Source: Clostridia bacterium (lineage in GTDB: Bacteria > Bacillota > Clostridia > Oscillospirales > CAG-272). Taken from it: DNA of 64,000 bases. Shown one piece after another: positions 1,889 through 60,669 of the stretch. The notes under the pieces are model-generated. The model was not told the DNA's origin. It searched no databases and was given only the letters and a program-made list of their open reading frames with translations. The position numbers and the translations under genes are program-made. The stretch is taken from assembly GCA_017621755.1 (NCBI GenBank), contig JAGASL010000021.1:1-64000 (forward strand), written 5' to 3'. Every line of letters starts with the position of its first letter. Within the stretch, counting starts at the first letter, position 1.

Positions 1889-2722
1889 TTATTGGCCGAT
1901 AGAGCGTAGATACTCGCGACTCTGACGGACTGCCTCCAGCGAGGGCAGCTCGTAGGTCTGATCCTGCTCTACGATGATGTATTCCGTGCCGGCCTTTTCA
2001 GCAGCGGCAAGGATAGCAGGGAAGTCCTGCATGCCCTGGCCAACAGGGCGGAAGCGAAATTCGTTTTCTTCCTTCGAGGTGGCCTTGATGGGGTTACCTG
2101 CGGCGTCGATCAACGCGTAGGCCGGGCCGTTTGCCAGCTTTTTGCAGGTGAAATCCTTCAGGTGAAGAACCTCAACGTCGCCGGCGTACAGGTCAAGATA
2201 CTTACACGGATCCTCGCCTGCGTAGCGTACCCAGCAGGTATCGAACTCGGGCTTGAGAAGGTCGCGTGAGATCTCCTCCATCAGGTAGTCATGCTTGTAC
2301 TTGCCGTCTACCTTAACAAACTCAAAATCGTGGTTGTGGTAGAGCATCTGAATGCCGTTCTTCTTCAGCAGCTCGCCGCAGCGGATGAAGAGCGCCTTGG
2401 TATCCTCCCAAGCCTCAGAGCCTGCCAGCTTTTCAGCCGCATACCACGGAATGGCAGAGAATTTGGCCCCCAGCGTCTTAATGTACTCGGCAGCGCTCTG
2501 ACCGCCCTCCTCGTAGAAATCGAGGCCCTGGTGAACGGAAATGCAGATCAGGCCGTACTTATCCAGCAGCGCGCGGATCTCTTCAGCGCTCTTACCGAAA
2601 TAGCCAGCGAACTCTACGTAGTCATATCCCATTTCCTTGACGGCCTTCAGCGTGCCCTCCATGTCCTTTTCCATCTGGTCACGGACACTATACAGCTGAA
2701 GTCCGACCTTGAACTTTTTCAT
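1889..2722 (-). CDS. Sugar phosphate isomerase/epimerase-like TIM-barrel protein
   Basis: A 277-residue protein of the xylose-isomerase-like TIM-barrel family (AP_endonuc_2 fold; IolE/IolI and YcjR relatives). Visible family features are VGLQLYSVRDQ at the N-terminus, the metal-site stretch LYHNHDFEF, LKPEFDTCWVRYAG, and VLHLKDF. Such enzymes isomerise, epimerise or dehydrate keto-sugars and inosose-type compounds with a divalent metal. It starts 12 nt after the upstream dehydrogenase stop, so the two are cotranscribed and probably act in succession on one sugar. The actual substrate cannot be read from sequence. No signal peptide. Confidence 0.85.
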   Translation of the reverse strand: MKKFKVGLQLYSVRDQMEKDMEGTLKAVKEMGYDYVEFAGYFGKSAEEIRALLDKYGLICISVHQGLDFYEEGGQSAAEYIKTLGAKFSAIPWYAAEKLAGSEAWEDTKALFIRCGELLKKNGIQMLYHNHDFEFVKVDGKYKHDYLMEEISRDLLKPEFDTCWVRYAGEDPCKYLDLYAGDVEVLHLKDFTCKKLANGPAYALIDAAGNPIKATSKEENEFRFRPVGQGMQDFPAILAAAEKAGTEYIIVEQDQTYELPSLEAVRQSREYLRSIGQ

Positions 2723-2734
2723 TTTGTATCTACC

Positions 2735-3907
2735 TCAAATCTCGGGAATTTCGATCTCGATCTCGTGGCCGAGCTTGCTGGACTTCACAATACCGTCGAT
2801 GATGGCCTGATTGTACAGGATCTCGCGGGCGGGAACGGGGGCTACGCCGCCTTCCTTGATGGCATCCAAGAAGCCACGCAGCTTGTTGTAGAAGTTCTTG
2901 TCACCATCGCTCGGAAGCATGGGGATCTCAGTGCATACCGAGGAGCCTGCTACCTCGTGGTAGATCTTCAGCGGGCCACCGATGCTGCCGTTCCAGCATT
3001 CGGTAGAGGGAATGCGGAGAGAGCCCTTGGTACCCATGATGATGGTATCACCGGGGGTGTCCAGATGCATTGCCCAAGCAATACGGAAGTCAAGAATGAT
3101 GCCACCCTCCAGACGGATAAAGCCAGCGCCAAAATCATCAACGCCAAACAGGTCTGCATACTCAGCAGGCTTGCCCTGCGCGGTGAAGTAGTTCGGGTCC
3201 TTGCCGAAGAAGGCAGACTTGTAGCCGGTGACGGTCAGCGGCTTCGGATAGCCGATGGCGTTAAGAACCATATCCAGCGAATAGCAGCCGATATCGCCAA
3301 GCGCACCTACGCCAGCGGTGTTCTCTTCAATAAAGGTGGTGCCGAACGGGGTAGGAATACCCTTTCTTCTACCGCCACCGGTCTGGATGTAGTAGATCTG
3401 GCCAAGCTCGCCGGACTGAACGATCTTCTTCACCATCTTCATGTTCTCATCGCAACGAGGCTGGAAGCCGATGGAAAGGATCTTGCCACTCTTCTTCTCA
3501 GCGCGGCAGATCTCAACAGCCTCCTCAGTGGTTACGCACATGGGCTTTTCAAGCAGAACGTTAACGCCCTTTTCCAGCGCGTAGATGGTACATTCTGCAT
3601 GCGTGCAGTTATAGGTACAAACGCTAACGGCATCCAGCTCTTCATTATCCAGCATCTCCTTGTGGGAGGGATAGAAGTTGCAATCCTCGATGCCCCATTT
3701 CTTCATAAATTCTTCAGCCTTGCCGGGAACAAGATCAGCCGCTGCAACGATTTTGACATCGGGCATCTTCACATATTGAGACATATGTGCACCTGCGATC
3801 CAGCCGGTACCGATGATACCAACGCGAAGAACGCGCTTTGTATCGATCTCTTTTACTTCCTGGTTGGTTTTGAAGGCGTCCAGGCCCGCATCTCTCTTAT
3901 CTGCCAT
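2735..3907 (-). CDS. Gfo/Idh/MocA-family NAD(P)-dependent oxidoreductase
   Basis: A 390-residue sugar or polyol dehydrogenase. The Rossmann motif GIIGTGWIAG lies near residues 30-39. The family signature LLEKPMC carries the conserved Lys that lines the active site. The C-terminal alpha/beta domain contains GDIGCYSLD, with family-typical GD-G-H/Y spacing. A strong AGGAGG site precedes the ATG at 3907. The ~28 residues before the Rossmann strand are a polar extension. Gene order dehydrogenase-isomerase, divergent from an AraC regulator, is typical of small sugar-oxidation operons, but substrate and direction are unknown. Confidence 0.9.
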   Translation of the reverse strand: MADKRDAGLDAFKTNQEVKEIDTKRVLRVGIIGTGWIAGAHMSQYVKMPDVKIVAAADLVPGKAEEFMKKWGIEDCNFYPSHKEMLDNEELDAVSVCTYNCTHAECTIYALEKGVNVLLEKPMCVTTEEAVEICRAEKKSGKILSIGFQPRCDENMKMVKKIVQSGELGQIYYIQTGGGRRKGIPTPFGTTFIEENTAGVGALGDIGCYSLDMVLNAIGYPKPLTVTGYKSAFFGKDPNYFTAQGKPAEYADLFGVDDFGAGFIRLEGGIILDFRIAWAMHLDTPGDTIIMGTKGSLRIPSTECWNGSIGGPLKIYHEVAGSSVCTEIPMLPSDGDKNFYNKLRGFLDAIKEGGVAPVPAREILYNQAIIDGIVKSSKLGHEIEIEIPEI

Positions 3908-3965
3908 GATAACTTCCTCCTAAAATAAATTTTGGTTGATTTTTGAAGTTTGGCGTGCTATAATC

Positions 3966-3994
3966 ATTATAGAGGATATTTACATAAATTGCAA
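3966..3994 (-). promoter_or_regulatory. Promoter of the dehydrogenase-isomerase operon
   Basis: TTGCAA (3989-3994) and TATAAT (3966-3971) on the minus strand are 17 bp apart, in the 167-bp gap between this operon and the divergent AraC gene. An AraC activator site would be expected upstream, but I could not recognise one. Confidence 0.75.
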
Positions 3995-4074
3995 TCTCTA
4001 TTTTGAAAAAAACTTGTACGATTTTGACATTTTTTGCATGACCTGCCCACGAATAGGCAGAAAAGGTGTAGCAT

Positions 4075-4947
4075 ATGAGAAACGAGCTTGTTAGATCATC
4101 CCTTTCCACGCTCCCGGTCCATATCGGCTGCGGCGCCTCATCGTTTGAATGCCCGATGGATTGCCCCTTGCATTATCACGATGAAATTGAGCTGCTGGCC
4201 ATAATCAGCGGTGAGAAGCGTGTCTGGGTGGATGATAAGGAATATCTTCTTTCAAAGGGCGACGTTGCCTTTATCAATTCCCGCGTTCCGCACAGAACAG
4301 AGGATCTGCCGCCGAATATCTCTACGGTTTTGCTGCAATTTCGGCCGGATACCTTTCAGCCGGAGCCGGTAGAAAGCCGCGCCCTGCGCCATCTTGCTCG
4401 CTTTGTAGACAGCGCGGGCGATAATCCGATCCGTATTTTTCGTTGCCGCAACGGCGAAGAAGAGCTTTTTCGTTATATGATGCAGATCAAGGAGGAATAC
4501 GAAAGCAAAAAGGCCTCTTACGAAAGCTATCTGCAAGGCTGCATCTATCTGATTTTGGGCTTTTTGTATCGCCAGGGCATGCTTTGTGATGCCGAGCAGC
4601 GCTTTCACAACAATGCGGTAGAAAAGGTTATGCCGGCTCTAGTGTTTGTAGACGATCACTACGCCGAGGATGTTTCACTGAATTGCCTCAGCGAGCTGTG
4701 CGGGCTCAGCGAAGGGTATTTTTGCCGCCAATTTAAGGCGGCCACCGGCAGCACGCTGGTTGAGTACCTCAACTTCGTTCGCATCTATAATGCCGAAAAG
4801 CTGCTCACGCGTACCAATCGCCCTATTTTGGATATCTCTATGGAGGTCGGCTTTTCCAGCGTTTCTTATTTTAATCGTATGTTTCGTCGCTTCAAAAGCT
4901 GCTCGCCGAACAGCTATCGCCACGCGCAATACTTGCGCGAGAATTAA
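4075..4947 (+). CDS. AraC-family transcriptional regulator with cupin sensor domain
   Basis: A 290-residue regulator. The N-terminal part (residues ~20-110) is a cupin barrel with CPLHYHDEIEL and a GDVAFINSRVPHR turn, likely the effector-binding domain. The C-terminal ~100 residues hold two helix-turn-helix motifs, with the family signature ISMEVGFSSVSYFNRMFRRFKSC near the end. It is transcribed away from the dehydrogenase-isomerase operon and most likely activates it in response to the same sugar. That link is inferred from position. No membrane segment is present. Confidence 0.92.
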   Translation: MRNELVRSSLSTLPVHIGCGASSFECPMDCPLHYHDEIELLAIISGEKRVWVDDKEYLLSKGDVAFINSRVPHRTEDLPPNISTVLLQFRPDTFQPEPVESRALRHLARFVDSAGDNPIRIFRCRNGEEELFRYMMQIKEEYESKKASYESYLQGCIYLILGFLYRQGMLCDAEQRFHNNAVEKVMPALVFVDDHYAEDVSLNCLSELCGLSEGYFCRQFKAATGSTLVEYLNFVRIYNAEKLLTRTNRPILDISMEVGFSSVSYFNRMFRRFKSCSPNSYRHAQYLREN

Positions 4948-6753: not shown

Positions 6754-7404
6754 TTAAAGAATGAAATAACCAATGTCCCTTTTGTAATGGATCTTGCGCA
6801 GGTCGGTGCCGCGCAAAATGGTTTTGTTCAACCGTGAAAATTGTGTATGTACGTTAGATAGCTGTGGTAGCCTGGCCGGATTAAAGCAGGCCTGGCGTAG
6901 ATCCTCAACGGCAGCGGCGCGTGGCGCGCGGAAGAGTAGATATCGCGTTAGCATGACCTGCTCGTGCGTAGCCGGTAGCCGTTCACCACAAATGCAGATG
7001 TAATGTGTACCGGCAATGGCACGAACGCAATCGTAGATCATATCGCGCACGTCGATGCCGGTGTTCCTTTTGTACAGATCATACATGAAGTTAGCAAAGT
7101 GCGCGGTGGTAACGTTATCATCAAATACGGCATCAGCCAGCTGTAGATACATATAGTAGTTTCCATGCGGTGGTCGATACATCATAGCCAAGGGCACGCG
7201 GAAGAAATATTGGCGAATTTCGTGACACACGGCAGGCAGATCCTCTATGTATTCCGGTCGCATAATTAAAACGGTGTGTACCGGCTTAAAGATCATGGTG
7301 GTAATAGCATCTGGACGGCATACAAGGCTGTGCAGTCCCATGCGAAAAAACATGCATCGATCCGCTAAAACGGCATCTGGCTCATTGTCGATCAATAGTA
7401 TCAT
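6754..7404 (-). CDS. OmpR-type response regulator-like protein with degenerate receiver
   Basis: A 216-residue protein. The C-terminal third looks like an OmpR winged helix, with SNVHTQFSRLNKTI as the likely recognition helix region and the final GYFIL turn. The N-terminal ~110 residues resemble a receiver fold (LLIDNEPD in place of the acidic pocket). However, the third-strand position near residue 48 that should hold the phosphorylated Asp reads VLIMRPEY, with no Asp. No sensor kinase is next to it. It is therefore probably a phosphorylation-independent regulator. A GAGGGG site precedes the ATG. Target genes are unknown; the neighbouring sigK is a candidate by position only. Confidence 0.65.
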   Translation of the reverse strand: MILLIDNEPDAVLADRCMFFRMGLHSLVCRPDAITTMIFKPVHTVLIMRPEYIEDLPAVCHEIRQYFFRVPLAMMYRPPHGNYYMYLQLADAVFDDNVTTAHFANFMYDLYKRNTGIDVRDMIYDCVRAIAGTHYICICGERLPATHEQVMLTRYLLFRAPRAAAVEDLRQACFNPARLPQLSNVHTQFSRLNKTILRGTDLRKIHYKRDIGYFIL

Positions 7405-8327: not shown

Positions 8328-8638
8328 TATTACCGAGTGCCGGATGAGGCCATACTAACCGGGGGAGTAGCGGGTCCTTGTACCTGAAATCCGCTGTAGC
8401 AGGGGCTAATTCCGTTTTTGAGGGCATCGGCCGGCTTGTCTGTGCCGTATGCAGCCGCGTTGAAGAATGGGTCTTACGCAATTTGATGCCGTGAACCATG
8501 TCAGGTGGGGAACCAAGCAGCATTAAGCGGAAGTTTGAATGTGCCGTAGGGGTGCCTGTTCCGAGCGGTTGGTACGGTCAACGGGGTTGTTCGTTTGTTC
8601 GATCTTACGGTGTATGGTCTTATCCGGCATCCGGTAAT
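8328..8638 (+). ncRNA. ffs: Signal recognition particle RNA (large Gram-positive type)
   Basis: A ~310-nt RNA with both Alu and S domains. The Alu-like 5' part resembles Bacillus scRNA (GGGGGAGTAGCGGG, ATCCGCTGTAGCAGGG). The S-domain helix-8 core is AACCATGTCAGGTGGGG followed by AACCAAGCAGCATTAAG, with the GGAA tetraloop at 8509-8512. The 5' and 3' ends pair (ATTACCG and TGCCGG with CCGGCA and CGGTAAT), which sets the limits to within a few bases. It is placed just before dnaX, as in Bacillus. The RNA scaffolds Ffh for cotranslational membrane targeting; the receptor gene ftsY is at 59764. Confidence 0.92.
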
Positions 8639-8648
8639 CTACCTTGTT

Positions 8649-8694
8649 AGCGGGTACGCACAGGGCATCGCCCGTTTTGCGATCCGCTTTTTTT
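8649..8694 (+). terminator. Terminator of the SRP RNA
   Basis: Nested pairing AGCGG/CCGCT, CGCA/TGCG and GGGC/GCCC forms an interrupted hairpin that ends in seven Ts (8688-8694). It lies between the RNA end and the dnaX ribosome site. Confidence 0.75.
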
Positions 8695-8717
8695 CAAAGA
8701 AGGGAGAGGGCATTTTC

Positions 8718-10319
8718 ATGTATCGCGCTTTATATCGGAAATGGCGCCCCCGCGATTTTGATGACGTTTGCGGGCAGGAGCAGGTAACAGATATTTTGAA
8801 ATATGAGGTTGCCAACAAAAAGACCTCGCACGCCTATCTGTTCTGCGGTTCGCGCGGTACGGGTAAGACCTCCTGCGCTAAGATCCTGGCCAAGGCCGTT
8901 AACTGCGAAGATCCGCAAAACGGTAACCCCTGCAATCGTTGTGCTGCGTGCATGGCGATCGATGCCGGCACAGCAACTGACGTTATTGAAATGGATGCCG
9001 CCAGCAACACCGGTGTTGACCACGTTCGCGATATTAAGGACGAGATCGTATTCCTCCCGGCAGAGCTATCCTACCGCGTTTATATTATAGACGAGGTGCA
9101 TATGATGTCGGGCAGCGCCTTCAACGCGCTGCTAAAAACGCTGGAGGAGCCGCCAGCGCACGTTGTATTCATTCTGGCCACAACCGAGCTGCAAAAGCTG
9201 CCCAGCACCATCGTGTCTCGTTGTCAGCGGTTTGATTTTCGTCGTTTAGCTTCCTCTGTGATCGTTGATCGGCTTGGTAAAATTGCAACCGAAGAGGGCA
9301 TCGCGTTAGAGGAAAACGGTGCGCGCCTATTGGCACGCATGGCGCTTGGTGGTATGCGTGATGCTATCAGCCTGTTTGAGCTTTGCGCCGGTATGAATCG
9401 CACGGTAGACGAGGCGCTGGTGACCGAGGTACTTGGTGCCGGCAACCGGGCCGTTGTTGAGCGTATCGTAGGTGCTATTGCTACACGCGATTACGCACTG
9501 CTTTATAAGACCGTAGCCGAGGAGGCTATGTCCTCGCGTGACCTTTTGTCGCTCTGCCGCGATTTATTAGACTGTTATCGTGATCTGCTGGTGGTCAAGG
9601 CCGCTAAGCACGCGCAAGAATATCTGGACCTTACAGACGTAGAGTTGGAAAGATTGCAAAAGCTGGCCGCCGATTTTCAGCCGGCCATGCTGCTGTATCA
9701 CAGCCGCCTGTTAGAGGAGGCGCTTGCCGATATGCAGCGTACCGACCTACCGCGACGAACGGTGCTGGAATTAACGCTTACCCGTATGTGTGAGCCTAAG
9801 CTTTCCACCACGCCAGAAAGCCTGCTTGCGCGTATTGAGAGCTTAGAGGAAAAGCTTTCTCGCCTGCAATACGGCGGTGCTATTGCTACCAACCAGTCTC
9901 GCCTCGTGGCAAGCGAAGAGGAAAACGAGAAAAAAAACGAGGCAGATACAAAAGCCGCTCCCGCGAAACAAGCAAAGGCAATACCGCAAGCTGCCGCAGC
10001 CCCCACATACCGCCAGATCGCAGGCTGGAGCGAGATCGTAGAAAAGGTATCGAAAACCAGACCAAGCCTGCACGGCTTTTTGGATACGGCAAAGGCATAC
10101 CGTTCTGCGGATGGCAAGACCTATTTGCTTCGCGTAAGTAGTGATTTTTGCGCCCGTATGCTAAAGCGCCCCGAGACAGAAGAGGCGCTGAAGCTGGCAA
10201 TTGCCGAAGAAGAGGAGCGTGATGTTTCTGCATGCACCCTGATCATCGAAGGGGCAGAAAACACGGCAGGGTATAACCTGATAGATGAGATTGCCGAGGC
10301 GCTCGGCTCAAATACGTAA
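8718..10319 (+). CDS. dnaX: DNA polymerase III subunit gamma/tau
   Basis: A 533-residue clamp-loader ATPase. It begins MYRALYRKWRPRDFDDVCGQ, the usual DnaX start. Walker A GSRGTGKTS lies at 44-52, zinc ligands Cys63, 72, 75 and 78 follow, then IIDEVHM (Walker B) and the SRC sensor region. The ATG at 8718 has GGGAGAGGG upstream; the open frame extending to 8595 overlaps the SRP RNA and is not used. The C-terminal ~120 residues are the tau-specific part. A run of eight As at 9930-9937 lies at codon ~405, between these parts. It heads the dnaX-ybaB-recR cluster seen in many bacteria. Confidence 0.96.
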   Translation: MYRALYRKWRPRDFDDVCGQEQVTDILKYEVANKKTSHAYLFCGSRGTGKTSCAKILAKAVNCEDPQNGNPCNRCAACMAIDAGTATDVIEMDAASNTGVDHVRDIKDEIVFLPAELSYRVYIIDEVHMMSGSAFNALLKTLEEPPAHVVFILATTELQKLPSTIVSRCQRFDFRRLASSVIVDRLGKIATEEGIALEENGARLLARMALGGMRDAISLFELCAGMNRTVDEALVTEVLGAGNRAVVERIVGAIATRDYALLYKTVAEEAMSSRDLLSLCRDLLDCYRDLLVVKAAKHAQEYLDLTDVELERLQKLAADFQPAMLLYHSRLLEEALADMQRTDLPRRTVLELTLTRMCEPKLSTTPESLLARIESLEEKLSRLQYGGAIATNQSRLVASEEENEKKNEADTKAAPAKQAKAIPQAAAAPTYRQIAGWSEIVEKVSKTRPSLHGFLDTAKAYRSADGKTYLLRVSSDFCARMLKRPETEEALKLAIAEEEERDVSACTLIIEGAENTAGYNLIDEIAEALGSNT

Positions 10320-10350
10320 TTAAAAACGGAACATAAAGGAGAGCAGATCA

Positions 10351-10701
10351 ATGAAAGTCAGAATTCCGCAGAGCGGCGGCCCCTCGAATATGGCGGGCAT
10401 GCTGAAGCAGGCGCAGAAGATGCAAGAGGATATGGCGGCCAAGCAGGCAGAGCTGGAGGAGGCAACCTACGAGGTTTCTGCCGGTGGCGGCATGGTTACT
10501 GTTCGCATCAGCGGCAAGAAGGAGATTCTTGCCTTAGACGTGAAGCCGGATATCGTAGACCCTGACGATATTGAAACGATGACGGATATCATTACGGCTG
10601 CCGTAAACGAGGCAATTCGCAAGGTAGAGGAGACCGCAAACGAAGAAATGGCAAAAATAACCGGGCAGATGGCTATTCCCGGTATGCCCACCATGTTCTG
10701 A
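10351..10701 (+). CDS. YbaB/EbfC family nucleoid-associated protein
   Basis: A 116-residue small DNA-binding protein. The N-terminal GMLKQAQKMQEDMAAKQAEL helix and the core SAGGGMVTVRISGKKEILALDVKP are family hallmarks. It forms dimers that bind duplex DNA. An AAGGAG site precedes the ATG. It sits between dnaX and recR, the conserved arrangement, and is translated as part of that operon. Its exact role in repair or nucleoid structure is not settled for the family. Confidence 0.94.
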   Translation: MKVRIPQSGGPSNMAGMLKQAQKMQEDMAAKQAELEEATYEVSAGGGMVTVRISGKKEILALDVKPDIVDPDDIETMTDIITAAVNEAIRKVEETANEEMAKITGQMAIPGMPTMF

Positions 10702-10702
10702 T

Positions 10703-11302
10703 ATGGCAGATTTTGTTGCGCCACTGCAGGAACTTGTTGATCAATTTCGACGCTTGCCAGGCATTGGCGGTAAAACAGCCGTTCGCCTTGCCTTCTCGGT
10801 GATGGAATTTACCGATGAAGAAGCGGCCGCCTTTGCCTCTGCTATTCTGCATGCTAAGCAGGATATTCATTTATGCTCGTCCTGCTGTAATATTTCTACC
10901 GAGAGCTTGTGCGATATCTGTGCAGATGACGGGCGAGACAGAAGCGTGATCTGCGTGGTCGAGGATGCAAAGGCCGTGCTGGCCATGGAGCGTGTACATG
11001 ATTACCGTGGCACCTATCACGTGCTTGGCGGCGTGCTTTCTCCTATGAATGGCATAGGGCCGGAGCGCTTGCACATTCGCGAGCTGCTCAGTCGCCTGTC
11101 TGATGACAGCGTGCAGGAGGTTATTGTGGCCACCAACCCTACCGTAGAGGGGGAGGCAACAGCCATGTATATTTCCCGCCTGCTAAAGCCCATGAATATT
11201 ACTGTCAGCCGCTTGGCTTACGGCATTCCCGTTGGTGGTGACCTGGAATATGCGGATGAGGTAACGCTTCATCGCGCATTGGAGGGCCGCCGCCCGATAT
11301 AA
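10703..11302 (+). CDS. recR: Recombination mediator RecR
   Basis: A 199-residue RecR. In order it has a helix-hairpin-helix (FRRLPGIGGKTAVRLA), a zinc finger with Cys58, 61, 70 and 73, a Toprim domain starting at VICVVEDAKAVLAME, and a C-terminal Walker-B-like LAYGIPVGGDLEYADE. The protein works with RecO (encoded at 32266) to load RecA at gaps. The ATG at 10703 follows the upstream stop by one base, indicating translational coupling. A terminator follows directly. Confidence 0.96.
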   Translation: MADFVAPLQELVDQFRRLPGIGGKTAVRLAFSVMEFTDEEAAAFASAILHAKQDIHLCSSCCNISTESLCDICADDGRDRSVICVVEDAKAVLAMERVHDYRGTYHVLGGVLSPMNGIGPERLHIRELLSRLSDDSVQEVIVATNPTVEGEATAMYISRLLKPMNITVSRLAYGIPVGGDLEYADEVTLHRALEGRRPI

Positions 11303-13027: not shown

Positions 13028-13056
13028 TTGACTTTGTCCTATAATTGTGCTACAAT
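13028..13056 (+). promoter_or_regulatory. Promoter of the COG0523 operon, with an inverted repeat
   Basis: TTGACT (13028-13033), a 17-bp spacer and TACAAT (13051-13056). The arms CTATAAT (13039-13045) and ATTATAG (13062-13068) form an inverted repeat that brackets the -10 box, a plausible place for a metal-responsive repressor. It does not match the Bacillus Zur consensus as I remember it. Confidence 0.7.
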
Positions 13057-13105: not shown

Positions 13106-14320
13106 ATGACGAAAATTGATATTTTTTCCGGCTTTCTTGGCGCCGGTAAAACTACGCTGATCAAAAAGCTGCTTAAGGAGGCCTATGCCGGTGAAAAGGT
13201 CGTGCTGATCGAAAACGAGTTTGGCGAGATCGGCATTGACGGTGGATTCTTAAAGGAATCCGGCATTGAGATCACCGAAATGAATTCCGGCTGCATCTGC
13301 TGTAGCCTGGTTGGTGATTTCAGTCGCTCCCTAGGCGAGGTGCTGGAGCGCTTTCATCCTGATCGCATTTTGATCGAGCCCTCGGGCGTTGGTAAGCTGA
13401 GCGACGTAATTCGCGCCGTGCAGGACGTACACGCCGAGGATGCTGTGCTCAATGGCTTTACCACGGTAGTGGATGCCAAAAAGTGCAAGATGTATATGAA
13501 GAATTTCGGCGAATTCTTTGGCGATCAGATTGAGCATGCCGGCGCTATTATTCTCAGCCATACCGAGGGGCTGGCTGATGAAAAGGTAGCAGCCGCCGTT
13601 GCCCTGGTGCGTGAGCATAATGCCGAGGCCGCCGTGGTAACCACTCCGTGGGACATGCTAGATGGCAAGCAGATTCTTTCTGCCATCGAAAAGACGAATA
13701 CGCTGCAGGATGAGCTTTCTCGCCTTGAGGAGCACGCGCATCACCACCACGAGCATCACCATGACCATGATGTGGAGTGCTGCTGCCATGACCATGATCA
13801 CGGGCATCACCACGATCATGATGAGGAGTGCTGCTGTCACCACGAGCACGATCATGAGCATGATGAGGAGTGTTGCTGTCACGACCATCATGAGCATCAT
13901 CATGACCATGACGAGGAATGTGATTGCCACGAGCACGCGCATCACCACCACGATCACGAGCATGAACATCATCACGACCATGATCACGGCGAGGCATGCA
14001 CGTGTGGCTGCCACGATCACCACCATCATCACGCCGATGAGGTGTTTGATAGCCTTGGCCGAGAGACGACCCGTAAATACACCAAGGAAGAAATTGAAAA
14101 GGCGCTGCTTGCCTTTGCCAACGGAACGGAATACGGCATGGTTCTGCGTGCCAAGGGTATTCTGCCGGCGGCAGATGGGCAGTGGATCCATTTTGATTAC
14201 GTTCCCGGCGAGCCGGATATCCGTCTTGGTGGTGCCGATGTGATCGGCCGCTTCTGCGTTATTGGCTCTGGCCTTGATAAGGCTGCCATTCTGGCACTCT
14301 TCGGGCTTGAGGAGGCGTAA
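13106..14320 (+). CDS. COG0523 (CobW/YciC-type) GTPase with long His/Cys-rich metal-binding insert
   Basis: A 404-residue G3E GTPase of the metal-chaperone family. Walker A GFLGAGKTT lies at 9-17, the family CxCC metal motif (GCICCS) at 62-67, and a CobW C-terminal domain at ~320-404. Between them, residues ~210-309 form a repeat of His/Asp/Glu stretches punctuated by ECCCH, ECDCH and CTCGCH clusters, five units in all, with very high metal-binding capacity. Such proteins deliver or store Zn2+ or another transition metal. Gene order with a second GTPase suggests one metal-allocation unit. Which metal is bound is not readable from sequence. Confidence 0.9.
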   Translation: MTKIDIFSGFLGAGKTTLIKKLLKEAYAGEKVVLIENEFGEIGIDGGFLKESGIEITEMNSGCICCSLVGDFSRSLGEVLERFHPDRILIEPSGVGKLSDVIRAVQDVHAEDAVLNGFTTVVDAKKCKMYMKNFGEFFGDQIEHAGAIILSHTEGLADEKVAAAVALVREHNAEAAVVTTPWDMLDGKQILSAIEKTNTLQDELSRLEEHAHHHHEHHHDHDVECCCHDHDHGHHHDHDEECCCHHEHDHEHDEECCCHDHHEHHHDHDEECDCHEHAHHHHDHEHEHHHDHDHGEACTCGCHDHHHHHADEVFDSLGRETTRKYTKEEIEKALLAFANGTEYGMVLRAKGILPAADGQWIHFDYVPGEPDIRLGGADVIGRFCVIGSGLDKAAILALFGLEEA

Positions 14321-14322
14321 CG

Positions 14323-15270
14323 ATGGATGTAGCCGTATACCTGTTTACCGGCTTTTTAGAGGCGGGGAAAACAACGCTGATCTCTGAAACGCTGCAGGAT
14401 GAAAAGTTCAATTCCGGCGAAAAAACGCTGATCCTTGCTTGCGAGGAAGGGGTAGAGGAGTATGATCCCGCTTCGTTTCCTGGGGACGTTTCCTATGAAA
14501 GTATTGATACGCTTTCGCAGCTGAACCCTGATAAGCTTGCCGCCTTGCAGAGAAAGCATGCGGCAGAACGTATCATGATCGAATACAACGGCATGTGGAT
14601 GAATGACGATCTGTATCGTGCCATGCCGGAAAACTGGTATATTTATCAAGAGATCATGCTGGCGGATGCGGGGACCTTTGTGAATTACAATGCCAATATG
14701 CGCTCGCTTGTGGTGAATAAGCTGCAGAATTGCGAGATGGTCGTTTTTAACCGCTTTGATGAAAAAAAGACCGACCGCATGGATCTGCACAAGATCGTGC
14801 GCGGTATTTCTCGCCGTGTGAATATTGCTTATGAAACGCCCGAGCACAAGATCGAATATGACGAGATCGAGGATCCGCTGCCCTTTGATTTAGAGGCAGA
14901 CGTGGTAGAGATCGCAAACCGCGATTATGCCATCTGGTACCGCGATATGTCTGAGGAGATGGAAAAATACAAGGGCAAGGTGCTGCGCATGACTGGCATG
15001 GTAGCAAGAGATCCGGCGCTGCCGGCAAAATCCTTTGTGATCGGCCGTCACGTGATGACCTGCTGTATGGATGATATTGCTTATCGTGGTCTGGTCTGCA
15101 CGGGTGAGCAGAAATGCGAGCTGGAAAGCAAGGATTGGATCGTGTTGACCGCGCGGCTGGATATCGAATACCACAAGCTGTATAAATCTAAAGGGCCGGT
15201 TTTGAAGGTTATTTCTTTAGAAAGGACTGACCCGCTTCCGCCAGAAGAGCAGCTGGCCACCTTTTATTGA
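14323..15270 (+). CDS. CobW-like GTPase fused to a YcgQ/TIGR03943-like C-terminal domain
   Basis: A 315-residue protein starting 2 nt after the previous gene. The N-terminal ~170 residues are a G3E GTPase with Walker A GFLEAGKT (10-17) and an atypical NRFD in place of NKxD. The CxCC metal motif of its neighbour is absent; the region reads CEEGVEEYD. The C-terminal part (~215-310) contains FVIGRHVMTCC (238-248) and a GLVC turn. These resemble the soluble domain of YcgQ/TIGR03943 proteins, which in Firmicutes are often encoded beside a YcgR-type permease and CobW GTPases. The function is probably metal trafficking, but this is inferred. Confidence 0.75.
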   Translation: MDVAVYLFTGFLEAGKTTLISETLQDEKFNSGEKTLILACEEGVEEYDPASFPGDVSYESIDTLSQLNPDKLAALQRKHAAERIMIEYNGMWMNDDLYRAMPENWYIYQEIMLADAGTFVNYNANMRSLVVNKLQNCEMVVFNRFDEKKTDRMDLHKIVRGISRRVNIAYETPEHKIEYDEIEDPLPFDLEADVVEIANRDYAIWYRDMSEEMEKYKGKVLRMTGMVARDPALPAKSFVIGRHVMTCCMDDIAYRGLVCTGEQKCELESKDWIVLTARLDIEYHKLYKSKGPVLKVISLERTDPLPPEEQLATFY

Positions 15271-15286
15271 GAAAGGAAATGACGCT

Positions 15287-15811
15287 ATGACCGAGAATTA
15301 TTTTGAATATGCGGTGGATGAGAAGCCGAGTGGGAAAAATATGCTTCGCAGATGCCTTCTGATCACGTTTTATATCGTATTTTCGCTGGCGTTCTTTTTG
15401 TTTTTCTATTCGCTGCAGTTTCCACATTTGATCGCCATTTTGCCCCTGCTTTTGTTGATCATTGTGCTATTTACCTGGCAATACGTTGCTGTCACACACG
15501 AATATATCATTGCCGTTGGTGAAATTACGTTTGCGCGTATCTATTCCAACCGCCGCAGAAAAACCTTTTTACAGCTGCCGATCCGCGAGCTGCTGGCGGT
15601 GGTGCCAGATGATGGGCAAAAGCCGGCCGGGGTCGATCGTGTTTTAGATTTTCGTAGCGAGGCAAAAACACCCGATTCATATTATCTCACCTTCAAGGAT
15701 GATAAGGATAAGCTGTGCCTCGTTTATTTTGAAGCAACCAAAAAAGCCCTGAAGCTGATGCAGTTGTATAACCCCGGCGCCGTAAAGCTTGGAAAGGCCT
15801 TGCGATACTAA
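15287..15811 (+). CDS. Two-TM membrane protein of unknown function
   Basis: A 174-residue protein with two adjacent membrane helices (residues ~24-46 and ~48-66). A cytosolic beta-rich domain follows, containing YIIAVGEITFARIYSNRRRK and PDSYYLTFKDDKDK. The layout resembles small Clostridial membrane proteins with a PH-like tail (possibly DUF6106), but I am not sure of the family. It follows the second GTPase by 16 nt and precedes a terminator, so it belongs to the metal-GTPase operon by position. An AAAGGA site precedes the ATG. Confidence 0.7.
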   Translation: MTENYFEYAVDEKPSGKNMLRRCLLITFYIVFSLAFFLFFYSLQFPHLIAILPLLLLIIVLFTWQYVAVTHEYIIAVGEITFARIYSNRRRKTFLQLPIRELLAVVPDDGQKPAGVDRVLDFRSEAKTPDSYYLTFKDDKDKLCLVYFEATKKALKLMQLYNPGAVKLGKALRY

Positions 15812-15865: not shown

Positions 15866-16447
15866 ATGAAAGAAAGATTGGCAGTACTCAAAAAAGAGGC
15901 AGAGGCAATGCCAGCGCGTAGCCGGCACGCTGTGGATGATGAGGGGCGCGCTATTCTACGTATGAACGTAAAGGATGACAGTGGCTTCTTGTCTTCGTTT
16001 TCAGTGGGGGAAAAGCCTGTTATCAGCGATGAGGTTGCCTCTTTTTTAGAAAATAGCACCGTTGCTCTACCACCCGCGCAGCCGCTTGCGCTGCATATAC
16101 AGAGTGATTGTATTGATGAAGGAGAGCGGGTCGAATACCGTAGTGCGATCAAGGAATATTATACCGGTCAATACGTGGCCAATGAAAACGAGAGCCGCCG
16201 CAATCGCCGCATCGTGTTGCTGCTCGCTCTTTGCGGTATATTGATCCTTTCTATGGCTATCTTTTTAGAGTATCAGGCAGAAAGCCTGATTTGGGCTGAG
16301 GTGATCGATATTGCCGCCTGGGTCTTCTTGTGGGAGGCGGTTGACATTGGTGCCTTTCGCAACCACGAGCTGCGTGCCAACCGCTTGCGGTATCTTTCTT
16401 TAATAGAAATGAAGATCGTTTATCATTCAACTGGCGAAAAGGGATAA
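15866..16447 (+). CDS. Conserved membrane protein of unknown function
   Basis: A 193-residue protein. The N-terminal ~110 residues are soluble and polar. They contain PLALHIQSDCIDEGERVEYRSAIKEYY, a segment I associate with an uncharacterised Clostridial family. Two hydrophobic helices follow (~118-137 and ~141-158, with EVIDIAAWVFLWEAVDI), then a basic tail. No catalytic motif is visible. It starts only 15 nt after the previous operon's terminator, so it probably relies on read-through or a promoter within the upstream gene. A GAGGG site precedes the ATG. No function is proposed. Confidence 0.7.
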   Translation: MKERLAVLKKEAEAMPARSRHAVDDEGRAILRMNVKDDSGFLSSFSVGEKPVISDEVASFLENSTVALPPAQPLALHIQSDCIDEGERVEYRSAIKEYYTGQYVANENESRRNRRIVLLLALCGILILSMAIFLEYQAESLIWAEVIDIAAWVFLWEAVDIGAFRNHELRANRLRYLSLIEMKIVYHSTGEKG

Positions 16448-16456
16448 GGACAATAT

Positions 16457-16489
16457 AAAAAGCACTCGGCATTTGCCGAGTGCTTTTTG
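16457..16489. terminator. Bidirectional terminator before the rubredoxin gene
   Basis: The stem AAAAGCACTCGGC/GCCGAGTGCTTTT with an ATTT loop ends the plus-strand gene at 16447 and the minus-strand rubredoxin operon. Confidence 0.9.
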
Positions 16490-16494
16490 TGTTC

Positions 16495-16682: not shown

Positions 16683-17063
16683 TTAGATCTCAGTTTTCCA
16701 AAGACCGTGCAGATTGCAGTAAGCATATGCAGCGATCGGCGTTTCGTTGCGCAGGGTAAAGGTAGCAACCGGCTCCTTGCCTACTGCCAGGCACTGGCGG
16801 TGGCCGCCGCGGTCTGTCTGCAGGTATACCCACGTAATGCTGTGCTCCTCCGTCATCGGATGCGCAACCGAGCCAATCGTTACGGTAACCGTGTCGCCGT
16901 CCACAGCCACAACGGGCGTATGCTTTTCAATGCTGGCATCTACCGTTCCGGGCTCGAGGTGCGTCATTTTTTGACCGCAGCACATCAGCGGAACGCCTGC
17001 ATCGTGGATCATGCCAACCAAATTGCCGCAATGCTCGCAAATATAAAAGCGTGTTTCTTTCAT
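16683..17063 (-). CDS. dfx: Desulfoferrodoxin (superoxide reductase)
   Basis: A 126-residue 2Fe-type superoxide reductase. The N-terminal desulforedoxin centre is CEHCG plus MCCG. The catalytic domain carries the centre-II ligands seen in EKHTP, HPMTEEHSITW and YCNLHGLW (His, His, His, Cys, His). It reduces superoxide to peroxide without making O2, suiting an anaerobe. It lies between the flavodiiron and rubredoxin genes, 17 nt after the former, so oxygen and superoxide are handled together with rubredoxin as electron donor. Confidence 0.96.
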   Translation of the reverse strand: MKETRFYICEHCGNLVGMIHDAGVPLMCCGQKMTHLEPGTVDASIEKHTPVVAVDGDTVTVTIGSVAHPMTEEHSITWVYLQTDRGGHRQCLAVGKEPVATFTLRNETPIAAYAYCNLHGLWKTEI

Positions 17064-17080: not shown

Positions 17081-18871
17081 TTATTTTATTTCTTCAAAAT
17101 CAGAGGCGCCGTGCTTGCACAGGGGGCAAACAAAATCATCAGGCAGGGTATCGCCCTCGTATACGTAGCCACAAACGGTACATACGTATCCCTTCTTGCC
17201 TTCCGTTTTTGGCTTCGGCTTTACGTTTTCTAAATAATAGGTGTAGGTCATTGTTTCCTTTTCGGAAAGAACTCTTGCCTCGGTAACGGTGCAAATAAAC
17301 ATACCGTGCGTGTCCAGATCAACGTATTGCTCTACCGCCAGAGACATAAATGCGTTGATATAGCGGGGCAGGAACACCAGACCGTTATCTGAGCGCAGCG
17401 GCGTGCAGTTTTCAAACTTATCTACGTTGCGGCCGCTCTGGAACCCAAAACGCTCGAACACAGAAAAGGGTGCATCGGTAGACAGGCAGTTGATGTTCAT
17501 CTTGCCGGTCTGCTTGATCACATGGTGCGAGTAGTTTTCTTTGTTGATCGTTACAGCGATGCGGTTGGGGGTGTTCGTTACCTGGGTAACGGTATTGACA
17601 ATCAAGCCGTTGTCCTTTTTGCCATCGTGCGAGGTGACCACGTAAAGGCCGTAGCCAATATGGAACAGGGCTGTCATGTCGTTTTTGTTGGCGGTAGAAT
17701 CTTGCTTAGCCAGGTATTCCATACACAGCTCGTCTGCCAGGGCGTTCAGCTGCTTGCTGCTGCTTTCGTTAAGGGCAGAGAGAATGGTAACGGCCGTGTC
17801 GGCAAAGGTGAGCCCCTTGCTCTTTTCCAGCATGCCACGCATCACCTTTGTGGCCATAGGCGCCCAGCTGCCGTTTTCGATCAAGGCTACGGTGCGGTTG
17901 CTGAAATTGCGCTCGGTCAGGTGGTGAATAAAGTCACGCATGAAGGGAAAGATCTCAGCATTGTAGGTGGTTGTGGCCAGCACCAGCTTGCTATAGCGGA
18001 AGGCATCTGCCACCGCCAGCGCGATATCGCAGCGGGCCAGATCATGTACAACTACCTTAGGGCAGCCGTTTGCCTTCAGCTTTTCCGCCAGCTGCTGTAC
18101 AGCCTTTTTGGTATTACCGTAAATAGAAGTATAGGCAACTACAATGCCATCGCTTTCCGGCTCGTAGCCCGACCAGGTGTTATACAAATTGAGATAATAG
18201 CCAAGATTTTCCTTCAGCACAGGGCCGTGCAGCGGGCAAATGGTTTCGATCTCTAACGTGGCAGCCTTTTTCAGCAGCGCTTGTACCTGCGCGCCGTATT
18301 TGCCAACAATACCAATATAATAACGCCGCGCCTCGTCTGCCCAGGGCTCGTCAACGTCCAATGCACCGAATTTTCCAAATCCATCGGCAGAGAAGAGAAC
18401 CTTGTCTTTGGTATCGTAGGTTACAATAACCTCTGGCCAATGTACCATCGGTGCAGCAACAAAGGCCAGCGTACGCTCGCCAAGGGAAAGCGTGTCCCCC
18501 TCGCCAACTACAATGCGCCTGTCTGCAAAATCGGTGCCAAAAAAGTTCTGCATCATGCGGAAGGCTTTGTCTGAGGAGACGACCTTGGCAGAAGGATACG
18601 CCTTCATGAAATTGTAAATATTAGCGGAATGATCCGGCTCCATATGCTGCACGATCAGATAATCGGGCTGTCTCTTGCCAAGGGCGGAAGCAATATTGTC
18701 AAGCCATTCATGTGTAAAGCGAGCGTCAACTGTATCCATAATTGCAATCTTTTCGTCAATGATCGCATAGGAATTATAGGACATCCCGTTCGGAACGGAA
18801 TACTGCCCCTCAAACAGGTCAACCTCGTGATCGTTGACGCCGATATAACGAATGCTGTCTGAAATGATCAT
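17081..18871 (-). CDS. Multidomain flavodiiron protein (beta-lactamase, flavodoxin, flavin reductase and rubredoxin domains)
   Basis: A 596-residue O2/NO reductase. Residues 1-~235 are the metallo-beta-lactamase-like diiron domain with His76, Glu78, Asp80, His81 (HMEPDH), His144, Asp163 and His215. Residues ~242-395 are a flavodoxin domain (TSIYGNTKKA). Residues ~400-545 are a flavin-reductase-like split barrel (FHIGYGLYVVTS, NTPNRIAVTINK). Residues 561-596 are a rubredoxin with Cys564, 567, 582 and 585. The protein thus carries its own electron-entry modules. It leads the operon with desulfoferrodoxin and a free rubredoxin and has a good promoter. Confidence 0.95.
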   Translation of the reverse strand: MIISDSIRYIGVNDHEVDLFEGQYSVPNGMSYNSYAIIDEKIAIMDTVDARFTHEWLDNIASALGKRQPDYLIVQHMEPDHSANIYNFMKAYPSAKVVSSDKAFRMMQNFFGTDFADRRIVVGEGDTLSLGERTLAFVAAPMVHWPEVIVTYDTKDKVLFSADGFGKFGALDVDEPWADEARRYYIGIVGKYGAQVQALLKKAATLEIETICPLHGPVLKENLGYYLNLYNTWSGYEPESDGIVVAYTSIYGNTKKAVQQLAEKLKANGCPKVVVHDLARCDIALAVADAFRYSKLVLATTTYNAEIFPFMRDFIHHLTERNFSNRTVALIENGSWAPMATKVMRGMLEKSKGLTFADTAVTILSALNESSSKQLNALADELCMEYLAKQDSTANKNDMTALFHIGYGLYVVTSHDGKKDNGLIVNTVTQVTNTPNRIAVTINKENYSHHVIKQTGKMNINCLSTDAPFSVFERFGFQSGRNVDKFENCTPLRSDNGLVFLPRYINAFMSLAVEQYVDLDTHGMFICTVTEARVLSEKETMTYTYYLENVKPKPKTEGKKGYVCTVCGYVYEGDTLPDDFVCPLCKHGASDFEEIK

Positions 18872-59100: not shown

Positions 59101-59777
59101 ATGCCGCCACACAGACAGAATGCCGCCAAAAGATCAAAGCGCTTGGCTCTGTCAACGTAGCGGCGATCGAGGAATATGACCAGGTCAAGGAGCGGTATGA
59201 AACACTCTCTGAGCAGGTTGGCGACCTCAATCATTCGTACGAGGAGCTGACCGGCGTGATCAGCAAGATCGAAACCGAAATGAAGGCCAGCTTTGTCACC
59301 GCCTTTACTGAGATCAACCGCAATTTCGGCATTGTATTCCGCGAGCTGTTTGGCGGCGGCCAGGCAGAGCTGTTCTTGACCGACCCCGAGGACGTTTTGA
59401 ACTGCGGTATTGAAATCAAGGCGGCCCCTCCTGGTAAGATCATTAAAAGCCTGGCTCTGCTTTCTGGCGGCGAGCAAGCCTTTGTCGCCTGTGCGCTCTT
59501 CTTCGCCATTCTGAAGGTAAATCCCACCCCGTTCTGCCTCTTGGATGAGATCGAGGCGGCGCTGGACGAGGTAAACGTTTATCGCCTGGGCGAATACATC
59601 AAGAAGTTCTGCGGTGAAACGCAGTTTATTCTGATCACGCACCGCCGCGGTACCATGCAGATCGCCGACCGGCTATACGGCGTTACGATGCCGGAGCGCG
59701 GTATTTCCAGGGTCATTGCACTGGATATGAATGAAATGGAAAGCAGAAGTAAGGAGTTTACAGATGGGCTTCTTTGA
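56163..59777 (+). CDS. smc: Chromosome segregation protein SMC
   Basis: A 1204-residue SMC ATPase. The N-terminal head has Walker A GPNGSGKSNISDAMRWVLGE. Two long coiled coils (~165-500 and ~680-1030) flank a hinge near 520-660 (IYGPLSQLIST, NAGGSFTGGSV). The C-terminal head has signature LLSGGEQAFVA and Walker B FCLLDEIEAALDE. With ScpA and ScpB (encoded at 42369 and 41576) it forms the condensin ring. Starts at GTG 56163 with AAGGAGAAG upstream; ftsY overlaps its end by 14 nt. Confidence 0.97.
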   Translation: MYLKSLELHGFKSFPNRTVLNFERGTTVVVGPNGSGKSNISDAMRWVLGELSSRSIRGTKMEDVIFGGTNDRRPMGFAEVSVCFDNTDKNHALNLPYDEVVVTRRYYRAGESEYFINRKPCRLRDIYELFMNTGVGREGYSIIGQGRIAEILSKKSEDRRNFFEEAAGISKFRFKKQEAEKKLADTENNMVRVRDILSELEGRVEPLRRDSEKARRYLELYERKKEADVSLWLYDTQKLRTDITACRDACSLSENELALITESLASLEAQNDRLDEEQRSNRLLSEQLLTQIRDHTKNINRLDNEYQLLQNEAKHRDELIIDCNQRIHSTNQALVSLAEECRAGEAKIAGLREQEGNLTDEHLGLLAEQQAKMQEAQVLEGKLSAELESSKEIEASAVDLRVRMDVLKNTRASGNDKCESLLAEIGRYEADGKKLREEAARCEKNAEGFKNKIAELDQTIANGATDTDATNAARAEKMNELSAVSVQRSSFLQRVETLQRMEEHFEGYNNSVRFVMQREKQGGIAGAGKIYGPLSQLISTEKDYIIAVETALGSSIQNIVVDNETTAKAAMRCLKENRAGRATFYPISAIRSAGETDEIRRAATFAGYVNRADKLVTFEKTFTDIVEWLLARTVVFDDIDHATEAAKSLRYRVKIVTLDGQVINAGGSFTGGSVKHDSGIMSRAAEIESLKKEAEGLGKQITAAEKAIADFDKQLESIHNAVREAEQQKELLLTMSRAQFAALDSANAKLEANENLKAKLQADYDAIVAAELESGEELQALQAELSECEKKISAIADRRNELEIERNAILDEKDSLAGRASDVQIRLAEVRGEMLAASNAIDTAKTRIEELKSSKDEQQERVVEHETWLMDHKTELEANRREREKLDTLLSEIDSSRQSVEADNDDFAKRLTELKLQIRNKHNQKDLCAETDNRNKRKLERLTEEYDRLSSRLYDDYELTAEEARRLDYPPVTAENHSQYAATQTECRQKIKALGSVNVAAIEEYDQVKERYETLSEQVGDLNHSYEELTGVISKIETEMKASFVTAFTEINRNFGIVFRELFGGGQAELFLTDPEDVLNCGIEIKAAPPGKIIKSLALLSGGEQAFVACALFFAILKVNPTPFCLLDEIEAALDEVNVYRLGEYIKKFCGETQFILITHRRGTMQIADRLYGVTMPERGISRVIALDMNEMESRSKEFTDGLL

Positions 59778-60669
59778 GAAGTTAAAAAGTGGATTACAGA
59801 AAACCAAAAACGCCCTGTTCGGCAAAATCGACAACCTGCTGAAGAGCTTTGTTCGTATTGACGAGGACTTTTTGGATGAATTAGAGGAGCTGCTGATCAC
59901 CGCCGATGTAGGGGTAGAGACCAGCGAGGAAATTTTAGACACGCTGCGTGAAAGGATCCGCGAGGGGCGCATCAAGGAGCCGGATGACGTGCGCCAGTCC
60001 CTGCGCGAGATCGTGCGCGAGCTGATTGGCGAGCACGAGCCGCTTGATCTCTCCACCTCACCCTCCGTTATTTTGGTGATCGGTGTCAACGGCGTTGGCA
60101 AAACCACCTCGATCGGCAAGATCTCCGCCGCCCTGAAGCAGGAAAAAAAGAAGGTTGTGGTTGCCGCGGCCGATACCTTCCGCGCCGCAGCCACCGAGCA
60201 GCTTGCCATCTGGTGTGAGCGCAGCGGCGTTGACCTGATCAAGCAAGGGCAGGGGGCTGACCCGGCTTCGGTGGTATATGATGCCATTCAGGCCGTAAAG
60301 AGCCGCCACGCCGACGTATTGCTGATCGATACCGCCGGCCGCCTGCACAACAAAAAGAACCTAATGGACGAGCTTGCCAAAATCAACCGTGTCATCGGGC
60401 GCGAGCTGCCGGATAGCGCACGCGAGACCCTGCTGGTCTTAGATGCCACCACCGGTCAAAACGCCGTTAGTCAGGCAAAGGAATTTAAGAATGCCGCTGA
60501 TATCACCGGCTTGATCTTAACAAAGCTGGATGGCACCGCCAAGGGGGGCATCGTACTCTCGATCCGGCGCGAGCTTGGCATTCCTGTAAAATTTATCGGA
60601 GTTGGAGAGCAGATCGACGATATGCGCCCGTTTGAAGCCGGTGCGTTTGTCGATGCCTTGTTTGAATAA
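59764..60669 (+). CDS. ftsY: Signal recognition particle receptor FtsY
   Basis: A 301-residue SRP GTPase. A short N domain (FFEKLKSGLQKTKNALFGKI) is followed by the G domain with GVNGVGKTTSIGKI, DTFRAAATEQL, DTAGRL, and TKLDGTAKGG. It docks ribosome-SRP complexes at the membrane; the SRP RNA is at 8328. The ATG at 59764 has AAGGAG upstream and overlaps smc, a common coupling. Confidence 0.97.
   Translation: MGFFEKLKSGLQKTKNALFGKIDNLLKSFVRIDEDFLDELEELLITADVGVETSEEILDTLRERIREGRIKEPDDVRQSLREIVRELIGEHEPLDLSTSPSVILVIGVNGVGKTTSIGKISAALKQEKKKVVVAAADTFRAAATEQLAIWCERSGVDLIKQGQGADPASVVYDAIQAVKSRHADVLLIDTAGRLHNKKNLMDELAKINRVIGRELPDSARETLLVLDATTGQNAVSQAKEFKNAADITGLILTKLDGTAKGGIVLSIRRELGIPVKFIGVGEQIDDMRPFEAGAFVDALFE

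Follow-up and report, generated by a model that had tools for sequence, protein, structure and literature searches.

A conserved gene pair encoding a COG0523 GTPase with a His/Cys loop and a CxCC-less, DUF1980-bearing partner as a candidate zinc-allocation unit

Results

Two adjacent GTPase genes lie in a putative operon

The window, the whole 64,000-nt stretch of Clostridia bacterium DNA that was analyzed, contains two GTPase genes, here called A and B, together with the following features:

13028..13056, forward strand: sigma-70-type promoter-like site, TTGACT-17-TACAAT, with an extended -10 (consensus scan, 10/12 matches)
13106..14320, forward strand: GTPase A, a COG0523 protein (Pfam, YjiA alignment, motifs in 68 relatives)
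13733..14032, forward strand: His/Cys/acid loop of A, residues 210-309 (composition, tandem repeat, loops of relatives)
14323..14907, forward strand: GTPase domain of B, residues 1-195 (Pfam cobW, 31.1 bits; AlphaFold2 model)
14890..15228, forward strand: DUF1980_C of B, five-stranded OB-like barrel, GRHVMTCCMDD (PF21537, DSSP strands 220-302)
15287..15811, forward strand: 174-aa putative membrane protein, 16 nt after B (weak DUF6106 match, below cut-off)
15866..16447, forward strand: 193-aa ORF, last gene before the terminator, not core (Pfam search, no match)
16452..16493, forward strand: strong terminator-like hairpin, end of the putative operon (19-pair stem, T tail)

The promoter-like site lies 50 nt upstream of A and is not by itself evidence of function. 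No Zur box was found near position 13106 in a search for the B. subtilis type with up to three mismatches allowed, no recurrent metalloregulator box was seen by eye upstream of the 68 relatives of A, and a riboswitch was sought near the pair and not found. The 174-aa ORF is probably co-transcribed with the pair; homologues in this position are confined to the two closest relatives, L035 and L036, and the ORF is not part of the core. Elsewhere in the window, a 596-aa fusion of flavodiiron protein (ODP beta-lactamase and flavodoxin), flavin reductase and rubredoxin-like domains (17081-18871, reverse strand) adjoins a desulfoferrodoxin gene (16683-17063), forming an oxygen-defence cluster.

The source genome, that of a gut-type bacterium, is a 2.38-Mb draft that is 96% complete, in which A and B are the only COG0523-type proteins. 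Two further cobW matches were considered and set aside: the protein at 59731-60669 of the window reads as FtsY, and the match on contig C62 is weak and partial. The genome has a single DUF1980_C in all, together with two FUR proteins and a ZIP-type transporter. ZnuA is absent from it, and no metal-uptake gene stands beside the pair in the window.

A has an intact CxCC and a loop rich in His and Cys

A is a 404-aa protein with an ATG start. In a Pfam profile search it matched PF02492 (cobW) with 132 bits, against a cut-off of 20.7, and CobW_C with 21.5 bits, just short of the cut-off of 22, which its relatives at L149 and L143 pass. The Walker A motif, GCICC (residues 62-66) and IEPSG are all intact. 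GCICC, the CxCC after Switch I, is kept in 68/68 aligned relatives, and the best solved relative in the alignment is YjiA. Judged as a sequence motif only, the G4 signature for guanine, [NT]KxD, is missing from A, which has LSHT; S(H/R)T without the Asp is seen across its relatives, and YjiA has TKTD. On its domain and its CxCC we place A in COG0523, without treating the G4 motif as strictly defining.

Between the GTPase domain and the C-terminal part of A is a 100-aa loop composed of 47 His, 31 Asp/Glu and 14 Cys residues, with five Cys clusters (CCC, CCC, CCC, CDC and CTCGC), and it is encoded by imperfect tandem copies of a unit of ~42-51 nt. This composition bears out the sequence-only reading, which had described five His/Asp/Glu units, each broken by a Cys cluster. 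The same reading had called Cys clusters in every repeat unusual, a claim that fails within the relatives of A, where CC or CxC clusters are present in 73 of 79 measurable loops. At least three clusters occur in 32 of these loops, and a His follows 175 of the 180 clusters. Loop length among the relatives runs from about 26 to 136 residues, some values below ~26 coming from loops cut by contig ends. Long His runs were not seen in the few unlinked COG0523 proteins examined. Given its composition, storage of metal by the loop of A is plausible.

A loop of this kind could also serve a metal buffer or detoxifier, absorbing excess metal while the GTPases merely tune its release. The 47 His and 14 Cys residues are in keeping with such a role, as is the range of loop lengths, which fits a store where capacity and not sequence counts, and the plain promoter-like site upstream of A, with no metalloregulator box found, points the same way. 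We nevertheless regard a buffer as improbable, given that the CxCC and GTPase motifs are invariant in the relatives of A, that a second conserved protein would be superfluous, and that the relatives adjoin uptake genes and not efflux genes.

B lacks the CxCC and ends in a DUF1980 domain

B (14323-15270, 315 aa) is as it was first described from the DNA: a second GTPase on the same strand that begins 2 nt past the stop codon of A, has no CxCC and contains FVIGRHVMTCC in its C-terminal end. The CxCC is absent from all aligned relatives of B as well. The motifs of B are a Walker A GFLEAGKT, CEEG and IEYNGMW; its relatives keep GFLxxGKT, E41, G43, IExNG (where COG0523 proteins have IExSG) and the CC pair. 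The apparent G4 of B is FNR, without Asp, and since this Asp is missing from both A and B, guanine/GTP specificity is uncertain for both.

The C-terminal end of B, for which a profile comparison with TIGR03943 and DUF1980 had been suggested, matches DUF1980_C (PF21537) with 84.5 bits (E 7e-24), above the cut-off, and TIGR03943 with 75.1 bits, below its cut-off of 88.8. The N-terminal membrane domain of DUF1980 (PF09323) has no match in B. A GRHVMTCCMDD-type motif is common to B and YcgQ proteins, and the CC pair is found in most YcgQ proteins examined and in every B examined, even in divergent ones without the neighbouring Arg or Asp. The sequence-only reading had also assigned this domain to partner docking. 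Docking to YcgR, the permease with which a DUF1980 domain usually goes, finds no support here, as no YcgR-type permease (PF03773) is encoded in the 96%-complete draft of the source genome; the domain may dock to partners other than this permease.

AlphaFold2 run on B as a single sequence gave a pLDDT of 30 and that model was discarded, while a 79-row alignment gave a pLDDT of 94. The closest structures to residues 1-183 of the latter model are HypB (Z 14.5), YjiA (Z 13.3) and UreG (Z 13.0). Residues 220-302 are modeled as five strands, for which the partial Foldseek matches are OB folds. The matched folds belong to nucleic-acid proteins (RPA14, CST, the MCM N-domain and AsnRS), which, together with the FNR at the apparent G4, would suit a DUF1980_C whose ligand is a macromolecule (a nucleic acid, a protein or a membrane partner) in place of metal, B being a pseudo-GTPase scaffold. 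OB folds are generic, however, and the recurrence of the CC pair in every B and most YcgQ proteins examined suggests a metal or redox role, so that we give macromolecule binding only a small chance of being right.

A and B are near-obligate neighbors

A survey of gene neighborhoods showed that the same pair recurs widely. In a scan of named genomes, the best 80 loci encoding B-like fusions, which are the closest relatives of B, all have a His-rich COG0523 gene (A) directly upstream of B (80/80, some loci being cut by contig ends). As this choice of loci favors B itself, we turned to a less biased set as well, comprising 147 genomes from the order of the source genome. DUF1980_C was matched in 46 of these genomes, and ~315-aa GTPase fusions were present in 35 of the 46; A adjoins B in 35/35, with two pairs split by contig ends. 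The fusion also turned up in a phylum-wide sample, where its carriers were three members of the order, four genomes from the wider class and one genome that is more distant. The sole exception to the pairing is an orphan second B (L157, 5662-6597) in a genome that has a complete A-B pair elsewhere.

No conserved third gene stands beside the pair: the top neighbors reach 11/80 loci and derive from the shared synteny of one lineage, and a class II aldolase-like gene upstream (read by eye) is found at only 6/80. The pair itself is therefore the unit. Conservation at 80/80 loci and in 35/35 fusion genomes excludes chance pairing, and judging from these gene orders A and B form a real conserved unit of near-obligate neighbors. 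Within the order, carriage of the pair did not correlate with ZnuA (23/35 carriers vs 76/112 others, p = 0.84).

We also noted dnaX, with ybaB and partly recR, no more than a few kb from the pair, or from its permease-fused relatives, in the window, at L149, at L201 and in Vescimonas fastidiosa, in differing arrangements (regions: window 8595-11302; L149 7388-10014; L201 11702-12484; L213 297-2472). As dnaX is found at only 2/80 loci, this proximity is perhaps due to chance.

Relatives of B are fused to a permease in zinc operons of other Bacillota

For other Bacillota, ~12 kb surrounding DUF1980_C or permease matches was read. Five genomes from five families (L149, L151, L160, L201 and L202) encode a YcgR-type permease (PF03773) fused to a cobW domain that has no CxCC. 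All five fusions adjoin YcgQ (DUF1980) and a Fur-family gene, four (L149, L160, L201 and L202) are near genes for ZnuA and/or an ABC-3 permease, and an A gene adjoins four, the exception being L160. At L143 and L144, B stands as a separate gene alongside the permease and YcgQ, and its C-terminal end is hydrophobic. By a hand count in which some loci belong to the same family, a COG0523, Fur or Znu gene is near 12/22 loci with YcgQ and the permease.

The Switch II signature of B, IExNG, is present in four of the five permease-fused Bs as well as in solo Bs. A tree built from the GTPase domains separates A-type from B-type sequences at one branch (support 98/95), with the permease-fused Bs as long branches. 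Profile comparison scored the B of the window at 187 against the permease-fused Bs and at 110 against A; the permease-fused Bs scored 174 against A, close to 187, and the link between them and the B of the window thus rests on motif, tree and context together. At the level of sequence, the B of the window groups with the CxCC-less GTPase that is fused to the YcgR permease in other Bacillota.

Two side observations concern the same domains. Short DUF1980_C proteins at L193 (G058:C79, ~8432-8710) and L194 (G100:C28, ~6953-7252), from two other families of the order, are encoded <~2 kb from genes for ZnuA and an ABC-3 permease, which again connects DUF1980_C with zinc. At L152 (G253, 2188-4821), YcgQ is accompanied by a permease-like protein of 600 aa, longer than usual.

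The metal served by the pair could instead be nickel or cobalt. In that case A would be an insertase whose metal store resembles that of HypB or SlyD, and B would serve as its adaptor to the client. The closest folds to the model of B include HypB and UreG along with YjiA. The terminal loop cluster CTCGC recalls CxxCGC, the nickel site of E. coli HypB, and the Fur-linked module at L151 is beside genes whose starts, read by eye, resemble those of Ni/Co-uptake genes. This assignment appears unlikely, as ZnuA or ABC-3 genes accompany four of the five B-permease fusions, and hydrogenase, urease and cobalamin genes were not seen among the recurrent neighbors.

Discussion

We favor, with moderate confidence, the reading that the A-B locus encodes a two-protein zinc-allocation unit, a soluble, permease-less form of a zinc module. 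The sequence-only reading had proposed a metal-allocation unit, and such a role is supported by the presence of A and B relatives within Fur/ZnuABC zinc operons. We infer zinc, and not nickel or cobalt, from the context of the relatives only.

In the zinc-allocation unit, A would be a COG0523 metallochaperone carrying metal (zinc) at the CxCC in its GTPase switch region, and its His/Cys loop would buffer metal beside the CxCC. B is a paralogous G3E NTPase that has lost the CxCC and has an OB-type DUF1980_C domain with a conserved CC pair. The two proteins would most likely form a nucleotide-dependent heterodimer, within which B may be a regulator or a receiver, either accepting metal through DUF1980_C or guiding A to its client. 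In the lineage of the window, the module may have left the membrane by losing the permease, with DUF1980_C attached straight to B in the resulting soluble form.

A more specific scheme, which we offer tentatively and with more doubt than conviction, is an obligate hetero-GTPase relay. Metal would pass from the loop and CxCC of A to the DUF1980_C CC pair of B upon nucleotide-dependent pairing, and the same relay would drive YcgR/YcgQ (ScfAB) elsewhere in Bacillota. If this were true, the orphan YcgR/YcgQ (ScfAB) proteins would be zinc handlers. The domain fusions name a partner, B, for a COG0523 protein and yield the prediction that A pairs with B and that the DUF1980 CC pair is a metal site. 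This is testable, since carriers of the gene pair include named gut species, for example Vescimonas fastidiosa (strain MM35).

Comparison with known systems

The maturation GTPases HypB and UreG share the G3E fold with B. They combine a His-rich metal store with dimerization on nucleotide. Unlike A and B, they are single-gene homodimers for nickel and have no CxCC-less DUF1980 partner. Ffh-FtsY, a SIMIBI heterodimer, is a precedent for related GTPases that work together in twos and matches the GTPase domain of B structurally, although for A-B it can serve as an analogy of mechanism only.

Like the COG0523 proteins YjiA, YciC/ZagA and CobW, A combines a G3E GTPase domain with GCICC, IExSG and a His-rich stretch, and its C-terminal part weakly resembles CobW_C. 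It differs from them in that a CxCC-less B nearly always comes next, in the repeated Cys clusters of its loop and in its G4, S(H/R)T without Asp. The CxCC, which B is without, is held by all the COG0523 members treated in PMC2770081, and Zur-linked COG0523 genes near zur/znuABC were already known (PMC2770081).

B resembles YcgQ (TIGR03943/DUF1980) of the YcgQ/YcgR system in ending in a DUF1980_C with RxxMxCC, and in other Bacillota a CxCC-less GTPase is fused to, or stands beside, the permease/YcgQ pair. In contrast to YcgQ, B has no membrane domain, and the source genome has no YcgR. YcgR/YcgQ correspond to ScfA/ScfB of group A Streptococcus, which are needed for fitness in mouse soft tissue and whose function is not known (PMC5584981). 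In the literature on DUF1980, TIGR03943, COG3689 and PF03773, of which our coverage included few subscription papers, the A-B pair, the B-DUF1980 fusion and the B-permease fusion are not described. What is new is the trail of domain fusions that ties the CxCC-less B to the YcgR permease/YcgQ and to Fur/ZnuABC operons. COG0523 proteins are widespread, yet their known partners and clients are few, and the fusions join two open questions, the partners of COG0523 proteins and the function of YcgR/YcgQ, to each other and to zinc.
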